From NCBI RefSeq assembly GCF_003172895.1, contig NZ_QGKL01000011.1, forward strand, positions 1 to 64,000: a DNA stretch of 64,000 nucleotides, read 5' to 3'. Below are positions 11,863 to 21,446 of this stretch, one piece after another (position 1 is the first letter of the stretch; each line of letters starts with the position of its first letter). The DNA comes from Leucothrix arctica (lineage in GTDB: Bacteria; Pseudomonadota; Gammaproteobacteria; Thiotrichales; Thiotrichaceae). The position numbers and the translations under genes are program-made. The notes under the pieces are model-generated. The model was not told the DNA's origin. It saw only the letters and a program-made list of their open reading frames with translations, and made no database searches.

Positions 11863-14289
11863 ATGGTTGATTCAGTTAAATCCCATGCGCGCGTCGTGGT
11901 CATTGGTGGTGGTATCGCAGGTTGTTCAACGCTGTATCACTTGACTCAGTTAGGCTGGACGGATGTTGCTTTGGTTGAGCGTGACGAGCTAACGTCAGGT
12001 TCTACTTGGCATGCGGCAGCTCAGGTTACACAGTTTGGTGGAAATCAAACGATGATTGGTTTGAAGCGTCATAGTATTGATTTATACCGTGAGCTTGCTA
12101 AAGATACTGAGCATCCATTCTATTATGAAATTACGGGTGGTATGCGTACTGCTTACACTCAAGATCATATCGATACTTATCAGCATTACATTGGTATGGC
12201 TAAAAGTATGGGTGTTGAGATGGAGTACATCAGCCCTAAAGAAATTAAAGAACGTCATCCTCTTTTGTCGACTGATAAAATGTTGGGGGCTTGGTGGGAT
12301 CCATTGGATGGTTATATTGATCCATCAGGAATCACACTAGCACTTGCTCGTAAAGCACGTGAAGCAGGCGCATCGGTTTACCGTTCAAACCCTGTTGAAA
12401 GTATTACTAAGAAAGAAAATGGCGAGTTCATCGTTCATACAAAGAATGGTGATATCACTTGTGAAAAAGTAGTTAACGCGACAGGTTATCGTGTAAATGA
12501 AGTAGGTAACATGTTGGGTGTAGAGCATCCTGTTACATCAATGGAGCACATGTACTTCCTAACGGACAACTTACCTGAGCTTGAAGCGCTAGATTTCCAA
12601 GTTCCAATCATTCGTGATCCTCTTGATGACTTCTATAGTCGTCAGGAAAAGAATGGTCTATTGGTTGGTATTTACGAGCAAGATTGTAAGACGTTTGGTA
12701 TGGATGGTATCGATCCTAACTTTACACGTGACCTATGCCCACCAGATCTAGATCGTTGCCTAGATAACATGGAGCGTATCTTTGAGCGTATGCCTGCACT
12801 ACAAGAAGCGGGTATTCACACAACAGTAAATGGCCCAATCACTTATACAATTGATGGCGCGCCATTGATTGGTCAGATTCCAGGTATTGAAAACGCTTAC
12901 TGTGCAATCGGTCTTCGTGCGGGTATCGGTGAAGGTGGCGGACACGGTAAGATTTTGGCAGACTTGATCGTTCATGGTGAATGTGAGTGGGATGCTTGGT
13001 GTGTTGATCCACGACGTTTCACACAGTATGCAAACACAGAGCATACGACTTTAAAGACGATCGAAGATTATCAGAACGAATTCCATTACCACATGCCGCA
13101 TGAGCATCGTCCAGCGTCACGTTTAGCAAGAACAACACCTATTTATCCTGTGCTAGATCAAAAGGATGCAGCTTGGGGTGTGGTTAATGGTTGGGAAAGA
13201 ACATTGTTCTTCAAGCCAACTCCTGATTTTGTAGATGAGCATTCGTTCCGCTTTACACCAACAAAAGATGTTGTTGATAAAGAAATCAAAGCGATGACTA
13301 AAAATGTCGGCATCATGGAAGTTTCAGGCTTTAACCGTTTCTCTATTCAAGGTGAGGGTGCTGCTGACTTCTTAGATGGTTTGACGTGTAGCAACATTCC
13401 TAAAAAGGTCGGTAAAGTAAGTCTGTGTTACTTGCTAAACGAACATGGTCACGTACTAACTGAAGCAACACTTGCTAAGTTAGATGAAGATCATTTCTGG
13501 TACGGTTCTGCGGCTGCGGCTGAGTGGCACGATTTAGATTGGTTGAATAAGCATAAGCCAGACACAGTAACGATTACTGAAATGGCAGCTTCACATACTA
13601 TTCTTGTGGTTGCTGGTCCTAAGTCTCGTGAATTGTTGCAGTCACTATCACCACGTTGTGATTGGTCAAAAGCAGCATTCCCTTGGTTGAATGCGAAAGA
13701 AATGACAATTGGTCACGCTAAAGTAATGGCAATGACAATCAGTTTTTCTGGTGAACTTGCATACGAGTTACACGTTCCAAATGAGCAATTGTACTTGGCG
13801 TATAAGTTGATCAACGAAGCGGGTGAGAAGTTTGGTTTGACCCAGTTCGGTATGTACGCGACAGAGTCAATGCGTATGGAAAAAGGTTACCTACACTGGA
13901 AAGCAGATTTGATCTATGAGCGCAACCCAATGGAATCAGGTATCGGCTTCTTCGTGAAGATGGATAAGCCAAGCTTCATCGGTAAAGAGCCACTAGCAAA
14001 AATGATCGCTGAAGGTAATAAGAAGCAGCTAGCTACATTCGTATTTGAGTGTGATATAGCACCTGCACACGTAGGTGACTCTATGTACAACGGTGACAAG
14101 TTGGTTGGTACAGTAACTTCTGGTGCTTACGGGCATCGAGTTAACAAAAACATTGCGTATGCTTTTGTTGAGCCTGAGTTTGCAGTTGTTGGAACTGAGT
14201 TGAAAATTGAAATACTTGGTGAGATGTATCCAGCAGTTGTTACTGAAACTTGCTTGTATGACCCTAAGAACGAATTAGTTCGAGGTTAA
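11863..14289 (+). CDS. FAD oxidoreductase-GcvT fusion, dimethylglycine/sarcosine dehydrogenase-like
   Basis: Enzymes of this build oxidatively remove a methyl group from N-methylglycines or related amines and transfer it to tetrahydrofolate, passing electrons to ETF. The 808-residue protein has an N-terminal DAO-type FAD domain (VVVIGGGIAGCSTLYHL at about 11-27; GSTWHAAAQ with H50 at the position that binds FAD covalently in dimethylglycine and sarcosine dehydrogenases). A GcvT-type folate-binding domain runs from about residue 450 (VSGFNRFSIQGEGAADFLDGL) to the C-terminal barrel. The GGAG at 11852-11855 sets the start. Adjacent etfB and etfA are the expected electron acceptor. The exact substrate cannot be read from sequence. 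Confidence 0.85.
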   Translation: MVDSVKSHARVVVIGGGIAGCSTLYHLTQLGWTDVALVERDELTSGSTWHAAAQVTQFGGNQTMIGLKRHSIDLYRELAKDTEHPFYYEITGGMRTAYTQDHIDTYQHYIGMAKSMGVEMEYISPKEIKERHPLLSTDKMLGAWWDPLDGYIDPSGITLALARKAREAGASVYRSNPVESITKKENGEFIVHTKNGDITCEKVVNATGYRVNEVGNMLGVEHPVTSMEHMYFLTDNLPELEALDFQVPIIRDPLDDFYSRQEKNGLLVGIYEQDCKTFGMDGIDPNFTRDLCPPDLDRCLDNMERIFERMPALQEAGIHTTVNGPITYTIDGAPLIGQIPGIENAYCAIGLRAGIGEGGGHGKILADLIVHGECEWDAWCVDPRRFTQYANTEHTTLKTIEDYQNEFHYHMPHEHRPASRLARTTPIYPVLDQKDAAWGVVNGWERTLFFKPTPDFVDEHSFRFTPTKDVVDKEIKAMTKNVGIMEVSGFNRFSIQGEGAADFLDGLTCSNIPKKVGKVSLCYLLNEHGHVLTEATLAKLDEDHFWYGSAAAAEWHDLDWLNKHKPDTVTITEMAASHTILVVAGPKSRELLQSLSPRCDWSKAAFPWLNAKEMTIGHAKVMAMTISFSGELAYELHVPNEQLYLAYKLINEAGEKFGLTQFGMYATESMRMEKGYLHWKADLIYERNPMESGIGFFVKMDKPSFIGKEPLAKMIAEGNKKQLATFVFECDIAPAHVGDSMYNGDKLVGTVTSGAYGHRVNKNIAYAFVEPEFAVVGTELKIEILGEMYPAVVTETCLYDPKNELVRG

Positions 14290-14297
14290 TCAGTGTG

Positions 14298-14332
14298 GCA
14301 GGGTAGTTGCTGTGATACAGCAACTACCCTGC
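14298..14332. repeat. Perfect 16-bp hairpin with three-base loop, before etfB
   Basis: GCAGGGTAGTTGCTGT (14298-14313) is followed by loop GAT and its exact reverse complement (14317-14332). No T run follows. A second small perfect hairpin (AATAGGT/ACCTATT, 14347-14363, loop AAG) lies just before the etfB ribosome site. The pair may partly terminate, protect the upstream mRNA end, or lower etfB translation. Confidence 0.85.
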
Positions 14333-14392
14333 ATTAGGTAATTTCTAATAGGTAAGACCTATTGGTTAAGTACTTTGAAAAGAGGAATATTA

Positions 14393-15139
14393 ATGAAAGT
14401 TTTAGTTGCTGTGAAACGTGTTGTTGATTACAACGTGCGAATTCGCGTTAAGTCAGATGGTACGGGTGTCGATAAAGACAATGTTGTGATGTCGATGAAT
14501 CCTTTCGACGAGAACAGTCTAGAAGAAGCGATGCAGATGAAAGAAGCTGACGTTGCTAGCGAAGTTATCGCTGTCAGTATTGGTGATGAGAAATCGGAAG
14601 ATACGTTACGTAGTGCATTTGCAATGGGTGCTGATCGTGCGATTTTGATTAAAACTGACGTAGAGTTAGAGCCTTTAGCGATTGCTAAATTGTTGGCTAA
14701 GGTTGTTGAACAAGAGTCGCCACAGGTTGCGATCTTGGGTAAGCAAGCGATTGATGATGACTCAAACCAAACAGGCCAGATGTTATCTGCAATGCTAGGT
14801 TGGTCTCAAGGTACTTTTGCGTCAAACGCTGAGCATGTTGACGGTGCGATAAACCTAACACGTGAAACAGATGCGGGTTTAGAGACAATCAAAATTACAC
14901 TTCCTGCTGTAATTACAACTGATTTACGTCTAAATACACCTCGTTTACCTAAGCTACCTGCAATCATGAAAGCTAAGAAGAAGCCGATTGAAACGCATGA
15001 AGCAGATTCGTTTGGGATTGATTTAGCGCCGCGCTTAGAGGTTGTAAGTGTTGCAGCACCAGCAGAGCGTGCAGCGGGTATCATTGTTGCAAATGCAGCA
15101 GAGCTTGTTGAAAAATTGAAAGAAGCGGAGGCACTATAA
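14393..15139 (+). CDS. etfB: Electron transfer flavoprotein beta subunit
   Basis: EtfB forms the ETF heterodimer with EtfA and carries AMP; ETF collects electrons from flavin dehydrogenases. The 248-residue protein begins [20 protein letters not shown] and contains [19 protein letters not shown] and the AMP-binding stretch [20 protein letters not shown], followed by [20 protein letters not shown] chose ATG 14393, which has AGAGGA six bases upstream, over an in-frame TTG at 14375. The stop codon overlaps the etfA start (TAATG), so the two are translationally coupled. Confidence 0.97.
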
Positions 15140-16068
15140 TGTCTATTTTAGTAGTTGCAGAGCATGATAACGCTAGCCTGATTTCTGGCACGTTAAGTAC
15201 ATTGGCAGCAGCAAAAATTATCGGTGGTGATATCACTGTATTGGTTGCCGGTGAAAATGCGGGTTCAGTAGTGACTGAAGCTCAAGCTTTAGAAGGTGTG
15301 AGCAAAGTATTGGTCGCTGATAATGCGGCACTTGCTGATGGCCTTGCAGAGAATATTGGTAACTTAGTATCGAGTATTGCTGGTAACTACAGTCACGTAC
15401 TAACACCAGCATCAAACTTCGGTAAAAACTTCATGCCACGTGTAGCTGCAAAGCTAGATGTGATGCAGGTTTCTGATATCGTCGAAGTAGTTTCTGCTGA
15501 CACATTTGTACGTCCTATTTATGCAGGTAATGCATTAATGACGGTGAAGAGTAATGATACTGTTAAGTTAATTACTGTTCGTAGTACGGCATTTGATGCA
15601 GTTGAAGCGACTGGTGGCTCTGCTGCAGTAGAAGATCTTGCATTCTCTGATGTATTTGCTGGCTCCTCATTTATTAGTCGCGATGTGACTTTGTCTGAAA
15701 GGCCAGAGCTTGGGACAGCGAAAATTGTTGTTTCTGGTGGTCGTGGTGTCGGCAGTAAAGAAAACTTTGCTGTGATTGAAGGGTTGGCAGAAAAGCTAAA
15801 TGCAGCTGTTGGTGCATCTCGTGCGGCAGTAGATTTAGGTTATGCGCCTAACGATTGTCAGGTCGGTCAAACAGGTAAAGTTGTTGCTCCTGAAATTTAT
15901 TTCGCTATTGCTATCTCTGGTGCGATTCAGCATCAGGCTGGTATGAGTGAAAGTAAAATCATTGTAGCGATTAATAAAGACGCTGACGCACCAATTTTCA
16001 ATATTGCAGATTACGGTATTGTGGGTGATTTGTTTGATGTCGTTCCAGAGTTAATGGAAGTTTTATAA
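15139..16068 (+). CDS. etfA: Electron transfer flavoprotein alpha subunit
   Basis: EtfA binds the redox-active FAD of ETF. The 309-residue protein has the N-terminal alpha/beta domain (ILVVAEHDNASL) and the C-terminal FAD domain with VVSGGRGVGSKENFAVIEGL near residue 195, VGASRAAVDLGYAPNDCQVGQTGKVV and ISGAIQHQAGMSESKIIVAIN. The ATG overlaps the etfB stop by one base. A terminator at 16085 ends this transcription unit, separating the ETF genes from the transporter that follows. Confidence 0.97.
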   Translation: MSILVVAEHDNASLISGTLSTLAAAKIIGGDITVLVAGENAGSVVTEAQALEGVSKVLVADNAALADGLAENIGNLVSSIAGNYSHVLTPASNFGKNFMPRVAAKLDVMQVSDIVEVVSADTFVRPIYAGNALMTVKSNDTVKLITVRSTAFDAVEATGGSAAVEDLAFSDVFAGSSFISRDVTLSERPELGTAKIVVSGGRGVGSKENFAVIEGLAEKLNAAVGASRAAVDLGYAPNDCQVGQTGKVVAPEIYFAIAISGAIQHQAGMSESKIIVAINKDADAPIFNIADYGIVGDLFDVVPELMEVL

Positions 16069-16084
16069 GGCATAGTTCAAATTT

Positions 16085-16114
16085 GCAGGGTGAGAATTTT
16101 GCACCCTGCGTTTT
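16085..16114 (+). terminator. Terminator after etfA
   Basis: GCAGGGTG (16085-16092) pairs with CACCCTGC (16102-16109) around a nine-base loop and is followed by GTTTTGTT. The arm shares its first seven bases with the hairpin arm before etfB. Confidence 0.75.
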
Positions 16115-16559
16115 GTTAAAGCTCTTTTAATAGTCGAGTTATCGGTTCTTTTTAATATCCTATGGAAGATGTCATAAATATAAAACAAGTTTTTCTGGGA
16201 ATGTTTGTCGTTATAAAGTTTTAAAAAAGCAGTAAATTGTTGTGTGTTTATTGCCCTTGAAGGATTGTCGTTTTCCCTGTAAATGTAGGGGTTAGCGTTT
16301 GTTGAGTGGTTTTTATCGTTTTGGTTGATACTTATTTATTTGTTTTTAATCACTGAATGTTGGTGGGTATAGGACTAGTCAACTGAACCATTGATTTAAA
16401 TTACTCATTTGTCATATGGGTTGATTTATGAGAAGTTTTCATGGTCAATTCTTTATTGACTTAAAGAATACGGGTCTGTTCTGCTTGTGTTGGTAACAAG
16501 ATGGTGATTACTGCCAAGGTCGTATCTCTTTGGTTAACTGTTAGCAATGAGAGGATAAA
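16115..16559. other. Leader region of the transporter operon
   Basis: This is 445 bases of AT-rich DNA without a credible gene. It contains an 8-bp perfect inverted repeat ATTCTTTA-N6-TAAAGAAT at 16448-16469, about 90 bases before the binding-protein start, which could be an operator. The ribosome site GAGAGGA just before 16560 is strong. Confidence 0.45.
16448..16469. promoter_or_regulatory. Operator-like inverted repeat upstream of the binding-protein gene
   Basis: ATTCTTTA (16448-16455) and TAAAGAAT (16462-16469) are perfect inverted halves separated by TTGACT. It may bind a dimeric regulator such as the nearby LysR protein; the assignment is inference from position and symmetry only. Confidence 0.3.
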
Positions 16560-17621
16560 ATGAAACCAATGAAAAATCTTTTAAAGAAAGCTACGTTTAC
16601 AGCAATCGGTTTAACATTTGCAGCATCTGCTTCCGCAGATATTAATGTTGCATATTTCCTAGAGTGGGCAACACCGAATCAAATCGCGAAAGTTGAAAAA
16701 ACATACGACGAGGCACTGGGTGAAAAAGTTAACTGGGTTAACTTCGCATCAGGTGTTGCAATGACGGAAGCGATGTTATCTGGGGATATTGATATCTCTT
16801 TCAGTCAAGGTATGGCGCCTTTTGTAAACGCAATAAATGCGAATGCTCCACTTAAAGCGGTTGGTATTGCTGTTGTTTATGGTGCTGGTGGTGATTGTGT
16901 TGTTAGCAATGCTTCAGGTATCACTAAGGACAATGCTTCAGAGTTAGAAGGCCAATCAGTTGCTGTACCACTGAATACAATGTCTGATTTTGAATTCCGT
17001 ATGACAATGGTAAACCTTGGTGTTGATGTAAGTAAAATTACAGTGGTTGACCAAGAGCCAGCTGACGCAGCGGTATCACTAACAGATGGTCAAGTTGCAA
17101 TGGCTTGTGGTTTTGGTGAGAACTCTCTTTCTAAGATGAAAGAAGTTGGTAAGCCAATCTTCACCTTAGCGGAAAAGACTGCGGCAGGTATTGAAAGTTA
17201 CGACATTGTTTCTGTATCAGAGAAGTTTGCTGAAGAGAATCCAGAAGCACTGAAGACTTTCATGGAAGTCACATCACAAGCAAATGCAGACTTTGCTAAA
17301 GATCAGTCAAAAATATCTGTTATCGCTAGCGATGCAGGTATGAGTGTAGACAAAACGAAGAAGCAGATGGCTGGATTTAGCTTCCCTTCAGCAGAAGTTC
17401 AAGTAAACGAGTACCTTAGTAAAGACGGTAAAGTTGCAACGCTATTGCCTTTCATGGGTAAGATGTTTGCGACAGCAGCAGCGCCTGCAAAAGCAGATTA
17501 CAGCGCTGTGATTGACGCATCTTTTCTTGGTGCAACACCAGCAGTAGCAGCGACTTTAGAGTCACTAGCAGAGCGTGTTATGTCACTAGAAGCTAAAGTA
17601 AAGACTTTAGAAACTAAGTAA
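16560..17621 (+). CDS. Periplasmic substrate-binding protein, taurine/nitrate (TauA/SsuA) type
   Basis: This is the high-affinity binding component of the ABC importer encoded next. A Sec signal peptide ends AASASA before D27. The mature protein has the NMT1/TauA-like features INVAYFLEWATPNQIAKVEKTY, MLSGDIDISFSQGMAPF and the C-terminal lobe KTFMEVTSQANADFA. Unusually, the last 30 residues (PAVAATLESLAERVMSLEAKVK and following) form a leucine-heptad helix, which could make the protein oligomerise. The ligand is not clear: the neighbours (dimethylglycine dehydrogenase-like enzyme, ETF, PurU) suggest a methylated amine or amino acid rather than taurine, and no taurine or sulfonate catabolic gene is present. 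Confidence 0.85.
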   Translation: MKPMKNLLKKATFTAIGLTFAASASADINVAYFLEWATPNQIAKVEKTYDEALGEKVNWVNFASGVAMTEAMLSGDIDISFSQGMAPFVNAINANAPLKAVGIAVVYGAGGDCVVSNASGITKDNASELEGQSVAVPLNTMSDFEFRMTMVNLGVDVSKITVVDQEPADAAVSLTDGQVAMACGFGENSLSKMKEVGKPIFTLAEKTAAGIESYDIVSVSEKFAEENPEALKTFMEVTSQANADFAKDQSKISVIASDAGMSVDKTKKQMAGFSFPSAEVQVNEYLSKDGKVATLLPFMGKMFATAAAPAKADYSAVIDASFLGATPAVAATLESLAERVMSLEAKVKTLETK

Positions 17622-17637
17622 TAATCGTCGTGTTACT

Positions 17638-17677
17638 AAAAGCGGCAGCGAGAGTTCTCTCTCTGCCGCTTTTTTTT
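17638..17677 (+). terminator. Terminator between binding-protein and ATPase genes
   Basis: AGCGGCAG (17641-17648) pairs with CTGCCGCT (17663-17670), with an extra inner stem, an A run in front and eight T behind. It lies inside the transporter operon, where partial read-through would give much more binding protein than membrane components. Confidence 0.85.
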
Positions 17678-17778
17678 AATCAAAAAATTCGATGATCAGT
17701 AACTAATAGTAGCCGGAGCTAGGCCTGCTTAGCTAATAGTTACCTGAAGAGTGCGGTTCATTATTTTAAAGGGAATAT

Positions 17779-18573
17779 ATGAGTGATCTTGTCGCGAAAG
17801 ACTTAAGTATGGTTTTTGATGTTGGTTCGGGGGGGCAGGTGCATGCGCTTAAGAATATCAACTTCACATTGAAAAATGGTGAGCTACTCTCCGTTTTGGG
17901 ACCATCAGGGTGCGGAAAAACTACGCTGTTAAATATCATTGCGGGCTTTAACCGCCCTACAGGTGGGGCAGTCTACTTAGGTGATGAAGAAATTGAAGGG
18001 CCAGGTGTAAACCGAGGGATGGTTTTCCAGCAAGGCGCTTTATTTGAATGGTTGACTGTGTCAGAAAATATTAGTTTTGGCCTTCGTATGAAGGGTGGAA
18101 CATCAAAAGGAAGTCAAAAAAGGGTTGATGAGTGGTTGGATATTGTTGGCTTGTCAGGCTTCGGTAATGTGCCAACGTATCAATTATCTGGGGGTATGCA
18201 GCAACGTATTGCATTAGCACGTTGTCTTATTAATGACCCTGATCTGATTTTGATGGATGAGCCATTAGGTGCTTTAGATGCGCTTACACGAGAAAAAATG
18301 CAGGCTCTAGTTCTGAAAATTTGGAAAGAGACTGGAACCACCATCATGATCATTACTCACTCAGTAGAAGAAGCGTTACTGCTAGGGGAAAGGTTGTTTG
18401 TTATGGCGCCACGTCCAGGGCGAATTCATAAAGAATACAATCTTCCATTTGCGGAAATGGGGGTGACTCAAGACACTCGCGATATCAAAAATACACCTGA
18501 ATTTATTCAGACACGTGAAGAGATTCTTACCATGATTTGGGATATGGAAGAAGAAATTATGGGGCAGACGTAA
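17779..18573 (+). CDS. ABC transporter ATP-binding protein, TauB/SsuB type
   Basis: This 264-residue ATPase powers the importer. Walker A GPSGCGKTT (41-49), Q-loop in GMVFQQGALFEWLTV, signature LSGGMQQR at about 136-143 (Met in place of the usual Gln), Walker B LILMDEPLGALD and the switch His in ITHSVEEALLL are all present. This matches the nitrate/sulfonate/taurine class. It is separated from the binding protein by a terminator and 157 bases. The permease gene begins two bases after its stop, so those two subunits are translated together. Confidence 0.93.
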   Translation: MSDLVAKDLSMVFDVGSGGQVHALKNINFTLKNGELLSVLGPSGCGKTTLLNIIAGFNRPTGGAVYLGDEEIEGPGVNRGMVFQQGALFEWLTVSENISFGLRMKGGTSKGSQKRVDEWLDIVGLSGFGNVPTYQLSGGMQQRIALARCLINDPDLILMDEPLGALDALTREKMQALVLKIWKETGTTIMIITHSVEEALLLGERLFVMAPRPGRIHKEYNLPFAEMGVTQDTRDIKNTPEFIQTREEILTMIWDMEEEIMGQT

Positions 18574-18575
18574 TT

Positions 18576-20507
18576 ATGTTAGATTTCTTATTTACATACC
18601 GAGGCCCCATCGTAGGCACGCTATTCCTGGCTTTAATTGCGACTATTGTCTGGGCTGTGCTTTATGGCCGTAAACTCATGCGTACAGAAAAGTCAGATGC
18701 TGTTTTTGGTAATCCAGAGCGTGCATTAGGTGGTTGGCATTGGGTAATTACAGGTGTCAGTTTTATCCTGTTGTTATGGTTCTACTTCTCTTGGGATGCA
18801 GCAAGGGCGTTTCGTCCAGTAGCGGCAAACGAGTTTTGCCAAGTAGACAAGCTTTCATCAGCAGGTAATCCAATTCGTTCTGTTTTGCCTCTGGAAAAAT
18901 CTTTCTTGAAAGGCACTAGTCTATTAGTTAGAGAAAATAGGCAATTAAGCGATTTAGCGGACGACCTCGAACGCCTTGGCTTTTCTGATACAGAAAAAGC
19001 GGAAGCGAAAGAGATTGTCAGCTTGATGCGGTTAGCTATTGTGGGAGCAACGTCTCCACAGTATTTGGATGCGTCAACGCAAACTAGATTTGTAGATATT
19101 GAAAGTCGTATAACAGCACTAACCGCTAAATTAGCGAATGAAGGCTACCCAGGTGCTCCAACGGCAGCTCAAGAAGAAGCCGCTGCTAATATTGCACGCT
19201 GGGGTGATTCTGGTAACGAAATACCATATGCACCAGCAACACCTCTTGGTTATAAGTTCGCTGCTGCTGCAGTAGAAATGAAAGCTATTTCTAAAGACTT
19301 TATTAAGATAAAAAATACCAACGAGCACTTTTTAGGTCAGGTTGATGAGCTTAAGTCTCAGATAGCTGCGTTTGATACTAAAGCTAAAGCTGCCACTGGT
19401 TTAGATGAGCTACTCGTTGAGAATCGAGCTGATTTCTTTAAGGGTTTAACGCATGTGTTACGACGTGTTGATGACGGTAATATTTTTCCGCCAGATGCGT
19501 TAAATGGCATTCAAACAGCTTTAGTAGCACTAGATGGTGAACAAAAGAGTCAGCAGGGTGGGTTGAAGTATTTTGGTGCATTAATGATGCCAGGTGGTGA
19601 AATTCGTGCCGGTAGTAACTCATGTAGTGAGCAAGGTTCAGGGCGTTGGTTGCCAAAGCCATCTGACACTTTGCGTACATTTGTGCGTATCTCTAACCCT
19701 GAAATTGGTTACAAAGGTAACCCACTACTTTGGTACAAAATGAAGCCGTTTGGTGAAATGGTTGACTTGGTTGTTCCAGACTTTATTTCTTCTTTCGTTC
19801 CTGGTGACTTCCCTCGTCATGATGAGAATGGCGTCGTTACGCCTAACCTGAAGAGTAAAGTACATGACTTTGTTACTGGTAATTTTGTTTCATTTAAAGT
19901 GCCGATGCCAGCAGGCCATGTTTGGGACTCGTTAATCCGTGTTGTTGCAGGACTGTTCTTCGGTATTCTCTTAGGGGTTCCATTAGGGTTGTTCATGGGG
20001 CTGTCGAGATTTTCGAAAGGTTTCTTTGACCCAATTATCGAGCTTTATCGTCCTGTACCGCCACTTGCTTGGGCGCCATTGATCTTAACGATCTTCGGTA
20101 TTCAAGATGACGGAAAAATTTTCCTACTATTCATGGTTGCCTTCGCAATTATGGTTGTCTCTGCAAGAACAGGTGCGACAGGTACAAATCTCTCTAAAAT
20201 CCATGCAGCTCATTCGCTGGGTGCTTCTAAAGGGCAGATTTTGCGTAAAGTGATTTTGCCAAACTCTTTGCCTGAAATACTGACTGGTATTCGAATTGCC
20301 ATTGGTGTTTGTTGGGGGACGTTGGTCGCTGCTGAAATGCTCGCAGGAACGACGGGTATTGGTTTTGTAGAGAACGTTGCACGTAAGCAGTCGGACTACG
20401 AAATTATTTGGACGACGATTATTATCCTTGGATTACTTGGATTGTTATTTGACCTGATGATGCGTTGGGTGATTGATAAGACAATTCCATGGAGAGGTAA
20501 AGGTTAA
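18576..20507 (+). CDS. ABC permease with large N-terminal and soluble insert region
   Basis: The C-terminal 200 residues are a normal TauC/SsuC-type permease: about five membrane helices starting at residue 445 and the EAA loop HSLGASKGQILRKVILPNSLPEILTGIRIA that docks the ATPase. Ahead of it lie two extra membrane helices (about 9-33 and 53-78) and about 360 residues without membrane segments, containing coiled-coil-like stretches (LVRENRQLSDLADDLERLG, EMKAISKDFIKIKNTNEHF). Typical TauC is about 275 residues; this is 643. I chose ATG 18576, two bases after the ATPase stop, over an upstream in-frame ATG at 18537. The insert is probably periplasmic given two preceding helices, but topology is inferred. 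Confidence 0.85.
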   Translation: MLDFLFTYRGPIVGTLFLALIATIVWAVLYGRKLMRTEKSDAVFGNPERALGGWHWVITGVSFILLLWFYFSWDAARAFRPVAANEFCQVDKLSSAGNPIRSVLPLEKSFLKGTSLLVRENRQLSDLADDLERLGFSDTEKAEAKEIVSLMRLAIVGATSPQYLDASTQTRFVDIESRITALTAKLANEGYPGAPTAAQEEAAANIARWGDSGNEIPYAPATPLGYKFAAAAVEMKAISKDFIKIKNTNEHFLGQVDELKSQIAAFDTKAKAATGLDELLVENRADFFKGLTHVLRRVDDGNIFPPDALNGIQTALVALDGEQKSQQGGLKYFGALMMPGGEIRAGSNSCSEQGSGRWLPKPSDTLRTFVRISNPEIGYKGNPLLWYKMKPFGEMVDLVVPDFISSFVPGDFPRHDENGVVTPNLKSKVHDFVTGNFVSFKVPMPAGHVWDSLIRVVAGLFFGILLGVPLGLFMGLSRFSKGFFDPIIELYRPVPPLAWAPLILTIFGIQDDGKIFLLFMVAFAIMVVSARTGATGTNLSKIHAAHSLGASKGQILRKVILPNSLPEILTGIRIAIGVCWGTLVAAEMLAGTTGIGFVENVARKQSDYEIIWTTIIILGLLGLLFDLMMRWVIDKTIPWRGKG

Positions 20508-20573
20508 GCCTCAGTTATACGCTGTTTTTTGTGATTACAGATTTATTTACTAAACTTTTTAGAGATTGCAACA

Positions 20574-21446
20574 ATGTTAGAATCAACGTTATCGAACGAC
20601 GAATTTATTTTCCAAGCAACATGCCCCCTAGGAGGGGGTATTGTTTCGGAAGTATCGTCTTATTTGTGGGATAAAACCTGCTACATAAAAGAACTGCATC
20701 AATTTGATGATTTAAATACCGGTGAGTTTTTTATGCGTGCGGTATGTCGCATCGACTCTGATGAGGTATCAATAGACTCTATTCGTGAAGGGTTTGGTGC
20801 TCTTTCCGATAAGTTCGGCATGACGTGGGACATGCACGACAGCACTAAGCCTTGTCGCGTATTAATCATGGTAAGTAAGCTGGATCATTGTCTTGATGAT
20901 CTTCTTTATCGTCACCGTAAAGGTGAGTTGGCAATGGATATCACGGCGATTGTTTCTAACCACCAAGACGTGCGTCCAATGGCAGAGCGAGAAGGGATTC
21001 GTTTTGTGCATTTACCAATAACGAAAGAGAATAAAGCTGAGCAAGAAGCGGCTTTACTTGAAATCGTTGATGAGACGAATACTGATTTAGTTGTTCTAGC
21101 TCGTTATATGCAGATTCTTTCTGATAAATTGAGTAAAAGACTGAGCGGTAAGGTAATCAATATTCATCACTCTTTCTTGCCAGGCTTCAAGGGTGCTAAG
21201 CCTTATCATCAAGCGTTTGATCGTGGTGTTAAGTTGATCGGTGCGACGGCTCACTACGTAACGGCTGATCTTGACGAAGGTCCAATTATCGAGCAGGCAG
21301 TACAGGTAGTAGACCACTCGTTCAATTCAGAGATGTTGACTGCTGCAGGTCGTGATACAGAGACAATTGCACTAGCGAAAGCAGTTAAGTACCATGTAAA
21401 CCATCGTGTGTTTATGACGGGTAATAAGACTGTCGTGTTTAAGTAA
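20574..21446 (+). CDS. purU: Formyltetrahydrofolate deformylase PurU
   Basis: PurU hydrolyses 10-formyl-THF to formate and THF, balancing folate one-carbon pools. The 290-residue protein has an N-terminal ACT domain (FIFQATCPLGGGIVSEVSSYL) and a C-terminal formyltransferase-like catalytic domain with INIHHSFLPGFKGAKPYHQA near residues 194-213 and TAHYVTADLDEGPIIEQ. It lies 66 bases after the permease gene and is probably co-transcribed. Beside a THF-dependent demethylating dehydrogenase its likely job is to free THF and export the methyl carbon as formate. Confidence 0.93.
   Translation: MLESTLSNDEFIFQATCPLGGGIVSEVSSYLWDKTCYIKELHQFDDLNTGEFFMRAVCRIDSDEVSIDSIREGFGALSDKFGMTWDMHDSTKPCRVLIMVSKLDHCLDDLLYRHRKGELAMDITAIVSNHQDVRPMAEREGIRFVHLPITKENKAEQEAALLEIVDETNTDLVVLARYMQILSDKLSKRLSGKVINIHHSFLPGFKGAKPYHQAFDRGVKLIGATAHYVTADLDEGPIIEQAVQVVDHSFNSEMLTAAGRDTETIALAKAVKYHVNHRVFMTGNKTVVFK

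Follow-up and report, generated by a model that had tools for sequence, protein, structure and literature searches.

A long TauC-type permease in a tauABC gene cluster

The window, a stretch of 64,000 nucleotides from Leucothrix arctica (contig NZ_QGKL01000011.1, positions 1 to 64,000), contains genes in the order tauA-tauB-tauC, so that the permease is encoded together with a TauA-type binding protein and a TauB-type ATPase (Table 1). The ATG start of the permease at 18576 is backed by relatives that start at the identical alignment column. As the first-pass annotation had described, the ABC core makes up only about the last 200 of the 643 residues: the Pfam family BPD_transp_1 (PF00528) matches residues 467 to 633 with 89.8 bits, above its gathering cutoff of 26.4, all NCBIfam matches listed (25 of 38) begin at residue 432 or beyond, and all PDB sequence matches begin at residue 448 or beyond. 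The best NCBIfam family, the TauC equivalog PRK10160, covers only residues 448 to 642 and scores 174.7 bits, short of its cutoff of 342; judged by these matches, the long permease is TauC-like but not a certified TauC. The nearest solved chains, the NrtB (nitrate) and CmpB (bicarbonate) permeases, align with residues 449 to 638 only. Within the core, Cys579 is invariant in all 48 rows of the long-permease alignment described below.

The rest of the protein is nearly blank in the libraries. Pfam matched against the whole protein at an E value of ≤1 returned only BPD_transp_1 and DUF7018 (0.2), and residues 75 to 445 have no credible counterpart in Pfam, among the NCBIfam matches listed (25 of 38), or among PDB sequences. 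Weak helical matches in PDB and Pfam, with E values from 0.0015 to 10, were taken as chance helix matches. The binding protein matches the SsuA and TauA families of NCBIfam beneath their cutoffs, and the single PDB sequence that it matches at an E value of ≤1e-5 is the taurine-binding protein 6ssy (1.1e-13). The hairpin between tauA and tauB, which is not among the results of a simple terminator scan, may act as an internal terminator by which TauA is held in excess of TauBC.

TABLE 1 Features of the long-permease locus (positions in the window unless another locus is named)
Feature	Position	Strand	Evidence or remark
TauA-type periplasmic binding protein, 353 aa	16560..17621	+	Pfam NMT1, 41.7 bits
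TauA C-terminal leucine-heptad tail, residues 325-353 (29 residues)	17532..17618	+	Window genome only
Strong hairpin with trailing T-run, tauA-tauB intergenic	17638..17673	+	RNA fold -23.3 kcal/mol, z -6.2, 0/200 shuffles as good
TauB-type ATPase, 264 aa	17779..18573	+	ABC_tran, 117.5 bits; PRK11248 (TauB), 269 bits, below cutoff of 357
Long TauC-type permease, 643 aa	18576..20507	+	ORF, Pfam/NCBIfam, relatives
TM-a, residues 11-31, sole extra membrane helix	18606..18668	+	Hydropathy peak 11-27; model helix 9-37
TM-b, residues 54-72, homologous to ordinary TauC TM1	18735..18791	+	Three-form alignment; model helix 50-71
Insertion 1, residues 75-356 (~280 residues), helical, probably periplasmic	18798..19643	+	AlphaFold2 on residues 73-362
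Invariant Cys88, start of insertion 1	18837..18839	+	48/48 rows
Invariant Cys350, end of insertion 1	19623..19625	+	48/48 rows
LPKPSDTLRTF, residues 359-369, counterpart of ordinary TauC LP.P element	19650..19682	+	Alignment
Insertion 2, residues ~386-446 (~60 residues)	19731..19913	+	Alignment; block pLDDT 48-79 in full model
Permease core, residues 447-643	19914..20504	+	PF00528, 89.8 bits
Medium permeases with Big_9 Ig-like insert above cutoff	L131:4326-5588; L026:826-2091		2/4 tested

Two insertions between TM1 and the permease core

The anatomy of the N-terminal region was read from an alignment of long, medium (408 to 436 aa), and short (270 to 340 aa) permease relatives, and it departs in two respects from the first-pass annotation, which had counted two extra membrane helices and a block of about 360 extra soluble residues. 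Only TM-a is additional, and medium permeases also have a hydrophobic stretch at its place. The second helix, TM-b, is the first helix of ordinary TauC: in the alignment, the motif and helix at residues 42 to 72 (VFGNP...GGWHW...) correspond to the beginning of ordinary TauC-like permeases and their first helix (TVTFGDPSA..GGRFW...). TM-b is weakly hydrophobic, with a scan-window mean of 1.5 versus 2.7 for TM-a, and mean hydropathy over the 48 rows peaks at residues 11 to 27, weakly at 60 to 67, and in the core. The long helix-rich region is real, but it consists of two insertions (residues ~75 to 356 and ~386 to 446) instead of a single block. The larger one lies exactly between TM1 and the LP.P element, with the conserved motifs CSEQGSGRWLPKPSDT and AANE.CQV at its base; the smaller one, which is not present in the medium and short forms shown in the three-form alignment, lies between LP.P and the core.

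Counts of charged residues over the 48 rows suggest that the loop before TM-b (residues 31 to 52; K+R 4.8 versus D+E 2.6), residues 530 to 560 (4.4 versus 0.1), and the C terminus (4.3 versus 0.4) are cytoplasmic. Residues 75 to 445 are net negative (K+R 43 versus D+E 50). The probable periplasmic location of insertion 1, already suspected in the first-pass annotation, is supported by this positive-inside pattern, the invariant cysteine pair, and the homology of the flanks to TauC TM1 and the core. Cys88 and Cys350 probably form a disulfide that clamps the insertion.

Predicted structure of the insertion

AlphaFold2 run on the full length with the 48-row alignment gave a model with a mean pLDDT of 71.4, in which the insertion is confident and the core is poor; block pLDDT past residue 450 is 36 to 71, and the orientation of the insertion on the permease is not fixed by this model. 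Residues 73 to 362 modeled alone reached a mean pLDDT of 89.1 and a pTM of 0.85, with seven helices of 21 to 23 residues, several short helices, and one beta hairpin, in agreement with the many helices anticipated for the extra region.

In a structural comparison (VIA), the full model gave as its top match 3i9y, the sensor domain of TorS (Z 11.2, root mean square deviation [rmsd] 10.4, 155 residues aligned), and the matches also include PilJ (7zjr; Z 9.1, rmsd 3.4, 114 aligned), McpZ (8f7n; Z 8.7, rmsd 8.0, 159 aligned), and McpS (2yfb; Z 8.5, rmsd 20.7, 178 aligned). The insertion alone recovered McpS (2yfb; Z 10.4, rmsd 9.2, 168 aligned), the TorS-TorT complex (3o1i; Z 9.3, rmsd 10.1, 168 aligned), McpZ (Z 9.1, rmsd 10.1, 165 aligned), and PilJ (Z 8.6, rmsd 11.0, 173 aligned), with the unrelated TTYH2 (7rtt; Z 11.8, rmsd 19.1, 180 aligned) and TTYH1 (7p5j; Z 10.7) ranked higher; helical bundles can attain a Z of about 13 without kinship, and all values for the insertion are lower. 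Foldseek found no match to the insertion alone at an E value of ≤0.001, and its six matches to the full model at that threshold are all CmpB, that is, the core. The periplasmic domains of TorS and McpS are presumably helical bimodular (HBM) domains, with two stacked helical modules, placed between two membrane helices. The HBM family is not among the Pfam matches listed for a 12-row permease family (25 of 35, the other 10 being one-member matches), and the HBM likeness of the modeled insertion is a lead only. No MalF structure is among the PDB sequence and fold-comparison matches listed.

Distribution and descent of the long form

Long permeases were collected from 92 loci, 48 of which passed the filters (length of ≥560 residues, ≤97% identity to the window protein, and <93% mutual identity); 47 of these (L068 was left out) and the window make up the 48-row alignments A3 and A4. 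The collections overlap, and several of their loci come from one genome; for example, L001 is the window itself, and the pairs L002/L043 and L021/L055 have equal contigs. The 47 other loci share the layout of the window protein at 49 to 83% identity over their length and span two bacterial classes; Cocleimonas flava and Leucothrix pacifica are among them as named isolates. This refutes an assembly artifact or an erroneous fusion of two genes, one of the outcomes that the first-pass annotation had named as refuting its reading; nothing was found in its favor, the long forms fall in one clade, and we regard it as having practically no chance of being right.

The family search recommended in the first-pass annotation located the N-terminal region in scattered Gammaproteobacteria and in many genomes of one SAR11 family. 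The full-length form occurs in 8 of 39 genomes among relatives (window included) and in 5 of 6 within the genus. A draw from the class Gammaproteobacteria at an E value of ≤1e-40 matched 20 of 369 genomes, 5 with the long form (window included) and 15 with the core only, and in a further draw with the N-terminal part, 1 of 398 matched, the window itself; Gammaproteobacteria thus carry the long form only sparsely. When species genomes were scanned with the N-terminal 440 residues, there were at least 549 relatives among at least 595 pattern matches, and the best 80 of these relatives are, by title, 40 from Gammaproteobacteria and 40 from Pelagibacteraceae. Around a SAR11 genome, the long form is present in 8 of 337 genomes drawn from the class and in 94 of 197 drawn from the family (the central genome is included in both counts, and some of the 94 are fragments at contig ends). 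It is single copy in all six SAR11 genomes that were chosen as carriers.

The long form is widespread in SAR11 and, in the libraries searched, apparently unannotated; annotation misses the domain because it has no credible sequence counterpart among the Pfam, NCBIfam, and PDB matches listed. No description of the form was found in a literature search of titles and the beginnings of abstracts, with subscription papers outside its scope, or in passages of PMC10356861 and PMC6906117. Cargo of phages or plasmids was considered as well and left no sign: residues 1 to 440 have no match in the phage or plasmid collections, nine plasmid records match by the permease core only, and viral contigs gave no confirmed match to the whole protein in a scan that catches close relatives only.

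In a 77-row tree of the core, the long forms constitute one clade (48/48 rows, support 100/100), next to which stands a group made up of 10 medium forms and 5 short ones. Very long branches of some outgroup rows make the deeper order unsure. The medium forms are a separate clade (10 rows, support 96/96). The bacterial Ig-like family Big_9 (PF17963, cutoff 23.6) matches the inserts of L026 (39.5 bits) and L131 (24.4 bits), falls below the cutoff in L133 (16.1 bits), and is not found in L025. The insert of the medium form at the same site is thus a different one, so this permease group apparently had its first periplasmic loop enlarged on at least two occasions, by unrelated domains.

TauA and its pairing with the long permease

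The first-pass annotation had also pointed to a leucine-heptad helix at the C terminus of TauA as a possible partner of the insertion. The leucine-heptad tail exists, but the pairing found no support: an alignment of 61 TauA proteins taken from long-permease loci, among which SAR11 near-copies are numerous, has the tail in 1 row, and in all five near relatives checked, a stop codon follows directly after ...SFLK. These five include C. flava and L. pacifica, with a permease 81% identical to that of the window, and the tail is also lacking wherever the permease is 80 to 81% identical. A search of the window genome for another copy of the tail found none. Because the 60 other TauA rows lack it, the tail is a local, probably recent extension of TauA, and as a general partner of the insertion it is ruled out.

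The association of TauA with the long permease is nevertheless durable. In 27 of 38 loci, tauA lies directly upstream of tauBC, and in 11 it does not; 10 genomes were searched for an unlinked tauA, which was found elsewhere in 8 (52 to 57% identity) and not found in 2. In a TauA tree of 53 rows (50 different), selected by similarity to the window TauA, the proteins that belong to long permeases fall into a single clade (43 rows, of which 40 differ; support 100/100). As the clade includes unlinked tauA genes, the pairing outlasts gene linkage. Identity to the window TauA is 56 to 67% in four long-form genomes, 34 to 44% in twelve that have medium forms or related short ones, and 24 to 28% in three others, but SAR11 TauA proteins are 42 to 56% identical (five rows), so identity alone cannot separate the groups.

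Coinheritance of TauA and TauC is expected for any transporter pair. A mirror-tree analysis of the 31 of 48 A3 rows with TauA and TauB at hand gave partial correlations of 0.44 for TauA and the insertion (given TauB and core), 0.52 for TauA and the core (given TauB and insertion), and 0.28 for TauB and the insertion; this crude correlation of distance matrices over 31 genomes does not single out the insertion as the partner of TauA.

Gene neighborhoods and substrate

Besides the window, 37 loci with a length of 8 kb or more entered the comparison of neighborhoods, with 10 SAR11 loci chosen from 40 retained. All 10 SAR11 loci have an alanine dehydrogenase and an omega-aminotransferase gene beside the transporter, both above the NCBIfam cutoffs in the one locus tested, and 9 have a sulfolactate-dehydrogenase-like gene, which is below the cutoff in the one tested. 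These neighbors fit taurine as the substrate. In the window (11863 to 21446), the transporter is flanked by other genes: before it are an 808-aa FAD/GcvT-type protein similar to the sarcosine oxidase alpha subunit and to demethylases (all below cutoff) and two further genes that we take to encode electron-transfer flavoprotein subunits, and after it is the formyltetrahydrofolate deformylase gene purU (above cutoff). Because of these demethylase-like, flavoprotein, and purU neighbors, the substrate of the window transporter may be an N-methylated compound and not taurine itself; the literature search returned nothing useful on N-methyltaurine. In six Granulosicoccaceae loci (L066, L067, L068, L070, L073, and L077), long tauBC genes are followed by a conserved pair (clusters 10 and 11) that, named by eye, resembles a response regulator and a sensor kinase; tauA adjoins tauB in L066 only.

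A possible docking module for loaded TauA

The architecture, the single clade, the confident helical fold, and the invariant cysteines are computed observations, and a mechanism can be proposed on top of them. The long form would be the permease of a TauABC-type type I importer in which the first periplasmic loop is enlarged by the helical domain at residues 75 to 356, probably clamped by a disulfide, and by the smaller insertion at residues 386 to 446. Each half of the TauC homodimer would bear one such domain on its periplasmic side, with the conserved base of the domain (residues 75 to 98 and 336 to 379) beside the pore and the docking face and the variable helices (99 to 205 and 231 to 294) reaching outward. 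There the domain would make extra contacts with loaded TauA. Such contacts might raise docking efficiency or orient TauA, as MalF P2 does with MalE. The solute would be taurine or a close relative, such as an omega-amino acid or an N-methylated amino sulfonate. We tentatively favor this reading, in which the insertion engages TauA as a periplasmic module comparable to MalF-P2, and rate its chance slightly below even. Besides the signs of a periplasmic location, the confident fold of the insertion alone, and the shared clade of the cognate TauA proteins, it has precedents: MalF-P2 (residues 91 to 271) contacts MalE according to PMC3150292 (the domain is treated also in PMC8134467), and PMC6321045 has TorT docking on the TorS sensor domain and, more generally, TorT, LuxP, and XylFII docking on periplasmic domains of sensor kinases. 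The outward helices, at 0.40 to 0.43 majority identity the least conserved, are unlike a strict docking surface.

This fast variation speaks for a scaffold or lid that stabilizes the homodimer, shields the periplasmic gate, or spaces the transporter from the cell wall without touching TauA. In that case, the different domains that occupy this site would be interchangeable spacers, and the medium form, with its different and partly Big_9-like domain, indicates that the site tolerates unrelated folds. However, the conserved motifs at the base and the retention of the domain in genome-reduced SAR11 suggest more than a spacer, and we judge a scaffold or lid rather unlikely, although it is the closest competitor. 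Less probable still is a role as an HBM-like sensor, in which the insertion would measure the solute or loaded TauA and control transport. TorS, PilJ, McpZ, and McpS do recur in the comparisons of both the full model and the insertion alone, but TTYH2 and TTYH1 outrank them for the insertion, all Z values are below the chance level, Foldseek has no match to the insertion at an E value of ≤0.001, the window protein has no Pfam HBM match, and among the Pfam matches the protein has no kinase or chemotaxis output domain.

SAR11 are abundant ocean bacteria with streamlined, reduced genomes. Streamlined cells that keep an extra importer domain of 280 residues probably gain from it, for example, by capture at very low solute concentrations, and the function of the insertion is directly testable with recombinant TauABC.

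Comparison with known systems

The long permease shares the ABC core, TM1 (equivalent to TM-b), the LP.P element, and the tauABC order with TauC/SsuC/NrtB-type permeases, including that of Escherichia coli, whereas E. coli TauC, at 275 aa, has neither TM-a nor either insertion. The medium TauC-type permeases of Ruegeria, Paracoccus, and several Gammaproteobacteria resemble the long form in the first hydrophobic helix and in having the first periplasmic loop enlarged at the matching site; unlike it, they are shorter and their insert is unrelated and partly Ig-like. The HBM sensors TorS and McpS, together with PilJ and McpZ, are helical bundles like the insertion and recur as middling structural matches, but these similarities do not exceed what bundles reach by chance and have no equivalent in sequence, and the insertion belongs to a protein devoid of signaling output.

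MalF-P2 is beta rich and located elsewhere in the topology, unlike the helical insertion of the long TauC. In both, a large region, periplasmic in MalF and probably so in the long TauC, is built into the permease of a type I importer; that of MalF touches the binding protein (PMC3150292), and that of the long TauC would do so under the reading favored here. A bolder version, which we consider unlikely, is that in scattered marine Gammaproteobacteria and in a large proportion of SAR11, the permease that imports taurine-like solutes contains its own helical receptor for loaded TauA, structurally akin to the docking domain of TorS, in which case a receptor module would have moved from signaling to transport or been invented twice.
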